Shown here: positions 19,958-36,042 of the stretch, piece by piece
How positions within the stretch are numbered: position 1 is the stretch's first letter
Layout: each line of letters starts with the position of its first letter
From: Candidatus Poseidoniaceae archaeon
Lineage (GTDB): Archaea > Thermoplasmatota > Poseidoniia > Poseidoniales > Poseidoniaceae
Reading direction: 5' to 3'
DNA: 64,000 bases
NCBI GenBank assembly: GCA_028822845.1
Contig: JAPKCS010000002.1
Coordinates: 1 to 64,000, forward strand
Position numbers and translations under genes: made by a program
Notes under the pieces: generated by a model
Told to the model about the DNA's origin: nothing
Databases searched by the model: none
Seen by the model: the letters and a program-made list of their open reading frames with translations, nothing else

Positions 19958-19977
19958 TTCAATTCACTTGAACAGTC

Positions 19978-20232
19978 TCAACGCCAAACAATCGGTAAAG
20001 CATCTCGAAGAGCGCCTAATTCCTCACCGGTGTACACTGGCTTTCCGTCCTTCTTCAGGGTGTTCATAATCAGCCATAACACACCGTTCCAGGCAAGAGG
20101 GCGAGCAAAGATTTCGACATAGCCACATGCGGCTGCTTGGAGGAGTTTTCCTTCGTCGGTGTTCTCACTGAACAAGGCACGTACCAAATTACGAGCATCA
20201 AACTCGTAGCCAGGTGGTCGCCATTCCATCAT
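19978..20232 (-). CDS. Hypothetical 84-aa protein downstream of RHH/ParA genes
   Basis: ORF immediately downstream (4 bp gap) of the RHH-like ORF on the same strand; sequence not recognised. Confidence 0.55.
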   Translation of the reverse strand: MMEWRPPGYEFDARNLVRALFSENTDEGKLLQAAACGYVEIFARPLAWNGVLWLIMNTLKKDGKPVYTGEELGALRDALPIVWR

Positions 20233-20236
20233 GGGA

Positions 20237-20464
20237 TCACACCTTGAATGGAGCGAGGTTCAAACGATCGACCAGGTGTTCGACTTCAACATCTGCAACG
20301 GCTTTCATCCGTTCTCGTAATGTTTCAATTTCGCCGTCCATTTTAGCAATTTTATGAGCCCGAACGATGTCAGTGAGCAATTCATTGACACTCTTGTGCC
20401 CACTTGTGCTCCGCATGGTGTTCAACTGACGTCGAACTTCGTAACTCACACTTACAGAGGTCAT
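20237..20464 (-). CDS. Small ribbon-helix-helix / antitoxin-like DNA-binding protein
   Basis: MTSVSVSYEVRRQLNTMRSTSGHKSVNELLTDIVRAHK resembles an RHH/VapB-type N-terminus; SD GGTGAAGGA before ATG at 20464. Confidence 0.6.
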   Translation of the reverse strand: MTSVSVSYEVRRQLNTMRSTSGHKSVNELLTDIVRAHKIAKMDGEIETLRERMKAVADVEVEHLVDRLNLAPFKV

Positions 20465-20588
20465 TCCTTCACCTGTCATCGCAATCCCTGCTCATGACTG
20501 CGTTGTTTAGGCTACTTAACCCCCGCGAAGGAAGCGTTGCTGAATCGAGCGGTTTGAGACCCTTCACCAGCCGTCCAAGGCCTGATTT

Positions 20589-27460: not shown

Positions 27461-28060
27461 TCACTCGCTTTCGTCGTCCATCTCGTTGATGGTGATGTAT
27501 GAAGGCAAGGTCAGTACCTTGTCGAAGGTTCGAGAGAGCACGACTTCGTCGAGGCGCTCTCGTGTTCGCGAAAAGGCAGTGATTGGGACGCGAAGCTGAG
27601 CTTCGACTCCGAATTCCTTTTGGATGCTGACTCGGGTTTGGACAATGACGCCCTTGTATGTGCGCTTTACTTTGAACAGATCTGTAATGACTCCAATTTC
27701 GCGTCCTTGATTGTCGAGGACAGCTCGGTCAAGCATTTCATCAGGTGCGTACAACTTTTCGTCGATGCGCACGGTGTCTCGCCATCGGCGTTGCAGTTCT
27801 CGCATGGATTTCGATAGTTTCACAGTTCCATCCGTTCGGATGCTGTGGACCAGTTCTTTTGGCAAAGGTGCCAATTCAGCAGGCTTACGCATAAATTCGT
27901 CTGCGATGCCGGCATCCACTTGAATCCGCATGGATCGCACACGGGCTTCGTTAGGATGGTGGCGTTCTCCTACGATCGTTCCTACTTTCTTATCATTCAC
28001 GTACACATCTCTCTGGAGTAGCTCCTGGATGTCATATTTGTCGTTCGGCATTTTTCCCAT
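27461..28060 (-). CDS. PRC-barrel domain protein
   Basis: Two PRC-barrel-like segments: QRDVYVNDKKVGTIVGER... and DRAVLDNQGREIGVITDLFKVKRTYKGVIVQTR. Confidence 0.6.
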   Translation of the reverse strand: MGKMPNDKYDIQELLQRDVYVNDKKVGTIVGERHHPNEARVRSMRIQVDAGIADEFMRKPAELAPLPKELVHSIRTDGTVKLSKSMRELQRRWRDTVRIDEKLYAPDEMLDRAVLDNQGREIGVITDLFKVKRTYKGVIVQTRVSIQKEFGVEAQLRVPITAFSRTRERLDEVVLSRTFDKVLTLPSYITINEMDDESE

Positions 28061-28551
28061 CTCGTTGTGCCGGGGTGTGCCCGACTTATCCTCGCCTTTC
28101 CTTGAAGGGCTTTATACTCTTTCCCGATTTTAAAGTGATTTCCAATTGAGTTTGTCGTATAATCGACTTGAGTTCCAATTGAAATTCACACAAACTTTCA
28201 ATTTTAGCCGATGTCGTATAATTTTCTTTTCAATATGAATTCATTTCTAATTCTAGGGAGCCAGGGCCTGGATGGTACGTTGGAATATTTTGATCTTCGA
28301 ATGCTGCTCATTTAATCTATATTTCAATTGCAGAGGTGGAAATAACTCAGTGTTGACACAAGGATATTTATTTGAGAATGGGGATTCATTCTGGTTGTTT
28401 TATCGTAGGATCGACTCAGCTTGATTCAAGAAAGTAAAACAACGATTCCAATTAAAAATTACATTTTCCAATTGGAAACCTGAGTAAATATTTAGTTTCT
28501 GATGGCGTATAATTCTTACATTCCTACAGGTGTGAGAGGTGACATCCTCGA
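28061..28551. promoter_or_regulatory. AT-rich intergenic region with repeated CAATTG and G(T/G)CGTATAAT motifs (candidate origin/regulatory locus)
   Basis: CAATTG-like sites at 28143, 28176, 28199, 28325, 28449, 28469; GTCGTATAAT at 28154 and 28213, GGCGTATAAT at 28504; TTTTCCAATTGGAAACC resembles the core dyad of archaeal ORB elements. Confidence 0.5.
28446..28479. repeat. Paired CAATTG element, copy 1 (half-sites 20 bp apart)
   Basis: TTCCAATTAAAAATTACATTTTCCAATTGGAAAC; intergenic. Confidence 0.7.
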
Positions 28552-29448
28552 TTGGTTGATGTGTCAGTGGCGGTTGGTTTGTCCATGCCTCATACCCAAA
28601 CCGTCCATTTGTGCGGCGAGGCTTCCTCGCTTACATTCGGTTTGATTGAACGCTTGTTGCGCACGGAAGTGCACATCGTGCTGGAAGATGATCTGCATGA
28701 ACGGGTGTGTGGTGCTTATGCGACCGATCTTGAGTACAGGCAAGCGCCGGTGTCCTGTTCAAGCGATGTGGCTTTGGCTTCAGGACACCGTGTGTTCCTG
28801 CTGGGTCTTGGGCCATTGGCTGGGAGTGCTAAGGCTAGATCACGGTTTGATGTCGATGGTTCAGAGCTTATTCTTGTCACACCCCAGGGCGTGGATGTTC
28901 CCGCGGCAATGGATTGGGTCGATGCTCACGTAACGGTCCATGACATGCTGCCAATGCGCACCGATTCGATCTGGATGCCAACTGCCCTTACCAGCTGGGC
29001 TGATGGGATGTCTGTCGGGAACTTTGCACCTCCCGAAGGTGATGAACACCACTGGTGGGTGAGTGAAATCGATGTTGCAGACGCCCTCGTACGCCTGTCG
29101 CTCAGCGCCCAACCGTTCCCTAAGTCATGCAAGATGTCTGGTCGACGGTCGTGGCCAGTTAAGCAAACCCATGAGGAGTTTCAGTTGTTGTATCAACGGA
29201 CAATGGCAGGGAAGACAGGTGTTTTTGGTGTTCAAGAACTCACGGCAGCTCCAACGCCTCATATTGAACTGCAGTCATTGATGGTCACTGACGCGACGCC
29301 GATGAGCATCTCAGTGAACCGTCAAGACCGTCCCGATTTATCGCCTGTTCACGACGCATTGCATGCCGCAGATGGTGATGGCTGGCGTCCCCTTGTACCG
29401 GTTCGCACTGCTCTTATGCATTGCCTGGTAGGCTTGCTCGGTGCTTGA
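28552..29448 (+). CDS. Uncharacterised protein, possibly a divergent Rossmann/epimerase-like fold
   Basis: 298 aa ORF from TTG (or ATG M12); VHLCGEASSLTFGLIERLLRTEVHIVLEDD and WVSEIDVADALVRLSLS are loosely reminiscent of NAD-epimerase motifs; no firm family. Confidence 0.5.
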   Translation: MVDVSVAVGLSMPHTQTVHLCGEASSLTFGLIERLLRTEVHIVLEDDLHERVCGAYATDLEYRQAPVSCSSDVALASGHRVFLLGLGPLAGSAKARSRFDVDGSELILVTPQGVDVPAAMDWVDAHVTVHDMLPMRTDSIWMPTALTSWADGMSVGNFAPPEGDEHHWWVSEIDVADALVRLSLSAQPFPKSCKMSGRRSWPVKQTHEEFQLLYQRTMAGKTGVFGVQELTAAPTPHIELQSLMVTDATPMSISVNRQDRPDLSPVHDALHAADGDGWRPLVPVRTALMHCLVGLLGA

Positions 29449-35209: not shown

Positions 35210-35341
35210 GCCCTTGCGTCGAGGTTGCTGGTGATAATTACGACCCATGTGCGGACCAATTCAATTTTTCCAAAATCAATGACGAAGGATTACAACCGGG
35301 TCAAAGGAGAGATACATATCTCTAGAATTCGTAATGGAGAC

Positions 35342-35515
35342 ATGTTCATGATCGGCGAAGATCTTGAAACCACGGAAGACTGGAACGCAGTTCGATTGGC
35401 AAAGGGCATGGCTTACGCTGACGAGAACCCTGAAGTCGTGCTTCCTGGATTTACGGCAGCACTCGGTATCATCTCGATGCTCGGTGCAGCACTCCTTGTT
35501 CGCAAGAACGAGTGA
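35342..35515 (+). CDS. 57-aa protein with PGF-CTERM-like C-terminus
   Basis: MFMIGEDLETTEDWNAVRLAKGMAYADENPEVVLPGFTAALGIISMLGAALLVRKNE; PGF + hydrophobic stretch + basic end. Confidence 0.6.
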   Translation: MFMIGEDLETTEDWNAVRLAKGMAYADENPEVVLPGFTAALGIISMLGAALLVRKNE

Positions 35516-35609
35516 ACCCGTTTTACGGTGAACACACTGAGGCGCGTTGGCCTTGTGAAAGCAGGGTCAACGTGCTTCGGTTACAACGAGCACTGCAGAG
35601 AGGCTGGGT

Positions 35610-35990
35610 TCACTCTTCGAGGAATTGAGCGAGTTGTGGTGCCTGCCAGCCTTCAGGCTTGAGCACCTTTCCGTCTTCTCTGCGGATGACCTTTCCATCA
35701 ACCAATTTCGCCATGTTTGAACGGTGGACTTCGTTAAATGCATCATCATAGATGTGTTGCATGCCGTGATTGATGACGGTACCAGCAAGAATGTAACCGA
35801 TATCAGCAAGCGCATCGAGCACTTCGACCATGTCGCCTGCACGTGCAGCCTCTGCATACTCTTCGACTTCTTCACGCAACAATTTGATTCGTAGTTCAAT
35901 CATTTCTTCCGTGCCGAGTCCTGGACGATCGAGCTTAGGGATGTCAAAGGCTTCATTGAATTCGAGCAGCGATGTGACCATTGGGTTCAT
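35610..35990 (-). CDS. MazG-like all-alpha NTP pyrophosphohydrolase (DR2231-like)
   Basis: LREEVEEYAEAARAGDMVEVLDALADIGYILAGTVINHG...FNEVHRSNMAKLVDGKVIRREDGKVLKPEGW. Confidence 0.85.
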   Translation of the reverse strand: MNPMVTSLLEFNEAFDIPKLDRPGLGTEEMIELRIKLLREEVEEYAEAARAGDMVEVLDALADIGYILAGTVINHGMQHIYDDAFNEVHRSNMAKLVDGKVIRREDGKVLKPEGWQAPQLAQFLEE

Positions 35991-36042
35991 GCATTGCCCT
36001 CAGTGCGCTCGGCCCTTGAACGTTGCAGGGTGGGTTGTTGAA

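Follow-up and report, generated by a model that had tools for sequence, protein, structure and literature searches.

What does a 491-bp repeat-filled gap do in the genome of a marine archaeon? Archaea of the order Poseidoniales (Marine Group II) are abundant in the ocean and uncultured, and they fall into two families, Poseidoniaceae and Thalassarchaeaceae. We analysed a stretch of 64,000 nucleotides from a Poseidoniaceae genome (the window), where an intergenic gap at 28061–28551 lies between a minus-strand gene (27461–28060) and a plus-strand gene (28552–29448). An earlier note had read the gap as a candidate replication origin or a segregation/regulatory locus. The regulatory part of that reading stood, with an order-wide block that is TATA-locked to one gene. 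The origin part did not, given the skew, the boxes and the distance to Orc1. We consider that the gap probably carries an upstream regulatory array dedicated to the minus-strand gene, which encodes a predicted PRC-barrel (CdpB-like) protein (the PRC gene), with sites that would recruit the transcription machinery and activate the gene.

The repeat cluster in the gap is not due to chance

GC content was 37% in the gap compared to 52% across the window. The earlier note placed the gap among the longest non-coding gaps, and it ranked third by length in a simple gene list (794, 631 and 491 bp). The two longer gaps lie at 35249–36042 and 19958–20588. At least six CAATTG-like sites had been reported, and we located four exact CAATTG sites (28143, 28176, 28325 and 28469) together with CAATT at 28199 and 28449. 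GTCGTATAAT was found at both reported positions (28154 and 28213), as was GGCGTATAAT at 28504. Both strings of a reported imperfect repeat, TCGTATAATCGACTT (28155) and TCGTAGGATCGACTC (28403), were present, and so was a GC dyad, CCAGGGCCTGG (28261); neither TCGTAGGATCGACTC nor the dyad was conserved in 27 genomes of the genus. TTTTCCAATTGGAAACC, reported at 28465, was present and starts one base earlier, at 28464.

GTCGTATAAT occurred exactly twice in the 1,920,269-base genome (1.92 Mb), both times inside the gap. We simulated the gap 5,000 times with a first-order model, and no run produced four CAATTG or two GKCGTATAAT sites. Because no simulation matched the gap and GTCGTATAAT lies nowhere else in the genome, the motif cluster is not a product of chance. 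The repeat cluster is real.

The earlier note also took CAATTG to be a dispersed element, which our counts did not bear out. The window held 47 copies compared to 34 ± 6.7 expected, a number matched by 6 of 100 shuffles. Intergenic CAATTG was not over-represented in the relative G056 either (28 in 70 kb, compared to 33 GAATTC and 35 TTGCAA). A CAATTG regulon or dispersed element was rejected: there was no enrichment, and the composite motif was confined to one locus.

The array is conserved across Poseidoniales

We aligned the locus from 27 congeneric genomes having both flanking genes. The left half of the gap was strongly conserved, with the minus-strand TATA region followed by CCAATTG-n5-GTCGTATAAT, then another CAATTG, most often 33 bp away, CAATTTT and the second GTCGTATAAT. 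Both GTCGTATAAT sites and the PRC-side CAATTG sites were near-invariant; the centre and right side of the gap diverged. In the window, the conserved array block adjoining the PRC promoter spans 28103–28235. It holds the TATA box of the PRC gene (28111–28118, near-invariant in the 27 genomes; TTTATACT on the plus strand, AGTATAAA on the minus strand) and CAATTG site 1 (28143–28148). These are followed by the first GTCGTATAAT (28154–28163, plus strand), CAATTG site 2 (28176–28181, 33 bp from site 1), a CAATTTT half-site (28199–28205, near-invariant apart from its first two bases) and the second GTCGTATAAT (28213–28222, plus strand; 57–59 bp from the first within the genus).

Beyond this block, a third, weakly conserved CAATTG (28325–28330) was shared by close relatives only. 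The distal CAATTG palindrome TTTTCCAATTGGAAACC (28464–28480) was TTTCAATTG-like in most genus members. The distal variant GGCGTATAAT (28504–28513, plus strand), near the neighbouring gene, was GTCGTATAATTC in part of the genus and absent in others. A two-copy pattern search found the TCGTATAAT pair in this gap only, once per genome within the genus; in one genome (G040) the pair was present on two contigs. The backward control gave 0 matches, and 2 unrelated matches were found among genomes of other genera.

Diverged versions of the array preceded the PRC gene in both families. Other Poseidoniaceae genera had the same parts upstream of the PRC gene, and in several of them GTCGCATAAT or GACGCATAAT stood where the home genus has GTCGTATAAT. 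The corresponding region in Thalassarchaeaceae carried CTGATAAT or GGATAAT elements and a CAATTG pair 32 bp apart. Of 19 Poseidoniaceae genomes, 17 had the pattern CAATTG-N2..16-GWCGYATAAT, as a single or double unit confined to the PRC locus; the backward control gave no match. TGATAATNCAATTG was present as one copy each in 14 of 18 Thalassarchaeaceae genomes, with 11 copies at the PRC locus by contig and coordinates and 3 elsewhere. The GNCKNATAAT part was weak or absent, leaving CAATTG pairs alone, in genera g9 and g10 and in some Thalassarchaeaceae. These sequence comparisons indicate that the array is conserved across the order at a single locus per genome.

The array stays with the minus-strand gene's promoter

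In the window, the TATA string lies at 28113 and the first CAATTG at 28143, 30 bp upstream of it. The median distance from the first CAATTG to the TATA string was likewise 30 bp among relatives (interquartile range 30–30 in other Poseidoniaceae, 26.5–30.25 in Thalassarchaeaceae). The conserved sites thus stood at a fixed 30 bp upstream of TATA in both families, and the CAATTG pair kept a spacing of 32–33 bp in both. The median TATA-to-start-codon distance was 50 in other Poseidoniaceae compared to 75 in Thalassarchaeaceae. The automatic TATA distance for the home genus (−15) was confounded, because GTCGTATAAT itself contains TATA.

In several genera and at nearly all Thalassarchaeaceae loci, another gene stood in place of the plus-strand neighbour; often it was a predicted aminotransferase. 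Where this opposite neighbour was replaced, the array stayed with the PRC gene. The TATA-locked geometry and the replaced neighbour show that it is the minus-strand gene whose promoter the array tracks. The neighbour in the window (28552–29448, plus strand) is not the array's gene. Its 298-aa product had no match in Pfam or NCBIfam searches, and it evolves very fast (29–60% identity within the genus) beside an extremely conserved PRC gene.

The gene beside the array encodes a predicted tandem PRC-barrel protein

The minus-strand gene at 27461–28060, with which the array stays, encodes a 199-aa protein. We found no match for it in Pfam or NCBIfam, nor in a search of the PDB by sequence. A clear ortholog was present in almost all of the Poseidoniales genomes searched, whichever the family. 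Outside Poseidoniales none was convincing, and weak partial matches were seen in one other family only. An AlphaFold2 model built from 25 orthologs (pLDDT 86) had two beta-rich halves. Its best PDB folds were Archaeoglobus CdpB1/CdpB2 (8qzo, E about 1e-8). Comparison with the single domains of CdpB1/CdpB2 in 8onw gave TM scores by target of 0.65–0.78, and the next best folds were other PRC barrels. On this model, the product is predicted to be a tandem PRC-barrel fold of the CdpB type.

CdpB1/CdpB2 (8qzo, 8onw) were the best solved folds for the array-adjacent protein, which differs from them in several respects. The Poseidoniales protein carries both barrels in one chain, and sequence identity was low (10–15%). 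Full-length TM was also low (0.31–0.41) because the domains are arranged differently. In Haloferax, CdpB1/CdpB2 stabilise divisome organisation (PMC12186497). From the modelled fold, we infer that the PRC gene product may have a role in division. An FtsZ (tubulin) signature was absent from about 3.1 Mb of sampled DNA, which included about 60% of G056.

Replication origin readings of the gap and of a second locus

Read as a chromosomal origin, the gap would be an AT-rich unwinding element, and its CAATTG dyads would be lineage-specific origin recognition boxes (ORBs) bound by Orc1/Cdc6. The gap is AT-rich, occurs once per genome and shares with archaeal Orc1/Cdc6 ORBs repeated sites that resemble the TTCCA..TGGAA dyad core. 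Unlike archaeal Orc1/Cdc6 ORB origins, it has no G-string, no skew switch and no nearby Orc1/Cdc6. Methanomassiliicoccales belong to the same phylum as Poseidoniales. Their ORB consensus is GTTCCAGTGGAAATGG-AGGGGT (PMC4153887). The proposed search for an ORB consensus was negative: with a core taken from the Methanomassiliicoccales sequence, no box within 3 mismatches was found in the 64-kb window, and no box with a G-string was seen there.

The earlier note had found no cdc6/orc1 gene in the window, and an AAA_22 search of the contig that holds the window likewise gave no match. The single-contig congener G056 (2,064,136 bp) has Orc1/Cdc6 genes at 0.70 and 1.83 Mb and the array at 1.973 Mb, which places them about 0.79 and 0.14 Mb from the array. 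Skew was assessed in sampled stretches (about 60%) of G056 and in single contigs of other genomes. Plain GC skew, another proposed check, was uninformative: among 200 block shuffles, 64 reached the third-codon GC fit. A/T skew at third codon positions, with a correction for gene strand, split G056 into two domains whose change-points fell near 0.10 Mb (68% bootstrap 0.09–0.32) and 1.22 Mb. This two-domain fit was reached by none of 200 block shuffles. The switch at about 1.22 Mb was sharp, with two clean domains.

The sign of the skew did not change across the array. Within 150 kb on either side in G056, the values were 0.041 and 0.032, with both intervals above zero. In G097, from another genus, the flanks covered were 80 and 217 kb long, and they too agreed in sign (0.0625 and 0.0465). 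Skew alone does not settle the matter, since one of the change-points has a wide 95% bootstrap range. With canonical inverted boxes at another syntenic locus, and with ORBs, a skew switch and an adjacent orc1/cdc6 gene all missing at 28061–28551, we rejected the gap as an origin and consider this reading very unlikely. Among the papers listed in a literature search on origins in this order, none contained the term 'replication origin'.

An inverted pair of canonical ORBs, with boxes about 150 bp apart, was found at 203,746–203,929 in G056, within the broad skew-switch zone, and at G000:C27:45543–45727 in the home genome (locus L380). Of 116 Poseidoniales genomes, 52 had this pattern, each at a single place (16 of 21 genera; backward control, 1 genome). 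All 26 locus records examined adjoin the same beta-CASP (aCPSF-like) gene. Corrected skew in the home genome was negative to the left of the pair (−0.083, interval −0.124 to −0.042) and close to zero on its right side (+0.014, interval −0.006 to 0.033), and local skew around the pair in G056 was mixed. The skew therefore supports a zone, not an exact point. We regard the inverted ORB pair beside the beta-CASP gene as a well-supported candidate origin for the order and a much better one than the gap. A candidate origin of this kind would make read-coverage growth-rate estimates testable at a defined locus.

Several genus members (L371, L380, L383) also had a conserved string, GTGCTTGNCGCGACCATATTCTACGGGGCATACT, between the inverted boxes. 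Single ORB-like sites were seen at two other places in G056. One, near 6933 of L340 (G056:C1, about 305.9 kb), lies beside the same genes in several genera (L356, L363, L362). The other, at 4165 of L105 (G056:C1:1824164), has the main orc1/cdc6 gene about 5 kb away.

Alternative functions of the gap

The conserved sites could instead form a centromere-like or nucleoid-organising site, bound by a partition or SMC-loading protein, with the division gene adjacent by chance. One copy per genome, several phased palindromes and order-wide conservation are all consistent with such a site. It would have no need of the 30-bp distance to TATA, and it is this distance that is kept rather than that to any other landmark, so we consider it unlikely. 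A hybrid of centromere and promoter, kept across the order, is also conceivable; the array would then load a partition or cell-cycle protein that at the same time sets expression of the CdpB-like gene. We hold this to be quite unlikely; if true, division in Poseidoniales would be coupled to the cell cycle or to chromosome segregation.

The distal sites at 28464–28480 and 28504–28513 lie near the gene at 28552 and recur in part of the genus, as they might if the array chiefly controlled this divergent gene. Such control is distinctly improbable, however, since conservation is poor on the 28552 side of the gap and the array is retained at the loci where that gene was replaced. A small RNA gene or leader inside the gap would account for a conserved non-coding block and for the one consensus hairpin seen on the minus strand. 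That hairpin is the sole consensus helix, and it forms between the CAATTG sites, whose palindromic sequence makes such pairing trivial. The plus strand had no predicted consensus helix and an Rfam search of the gap gave no match, which makes an RNA gene extremely unlikely.

A model for the regulatory array

In the regulatory reading, one protein would bind the palindromic CAATTG sites as a dimer. A second protein would bind the asymmetric GNCKNATAAT sites, or one complex might bind both kinds. The sites start 30 bp upstream of TATA and extend outward, and the nearest two CAATTG sites would lie about three helical turns apart. Upstream of TATA at such spacing, bound proteins would be expected to recruit the basal transcription machinery, that is, to activate. 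The array would then set the level or timing of a division-type PRC protein. We infer both protein binding and activation, and the regulator would most likely be one or two dedicated DNA-binding proteins that act upstream of the TATA box. An order-wide array present once per genome is much conserved DNA for one promoter, and it may have a second role.

Control of Haloferax division genes by CdrS appears to be a close functional parallel. In Haloferax volcanii, ChIP placed the RHH regulator CdrS 72 nt upstream of where transcription of the PRC-domain gene HVO_1691 starts, and 50 nt upstream of the ftsZ1 transcription start (PMC8406309). Regulator sites upstream of promoters usually imply activation (PMC8406309). 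Both systems would have regulator sites 40–110 nt upstream of starts, one of them before a PRC-domain gene, with a symmetric motif and a presumed activating effect. CdrS has 18 sites in its genome, whereas the Poseidoniales composite motif is at one locus. Unlike CdrS, the Poseidoniales array has several sites per promoter.

Overall, this order-conserved non-coding element points to dedicated transcriptional control of a single gene with a predicted CdpB-like fold. The array would offer a concrete entry point to cell-cycle regulation in Poseidoniales.
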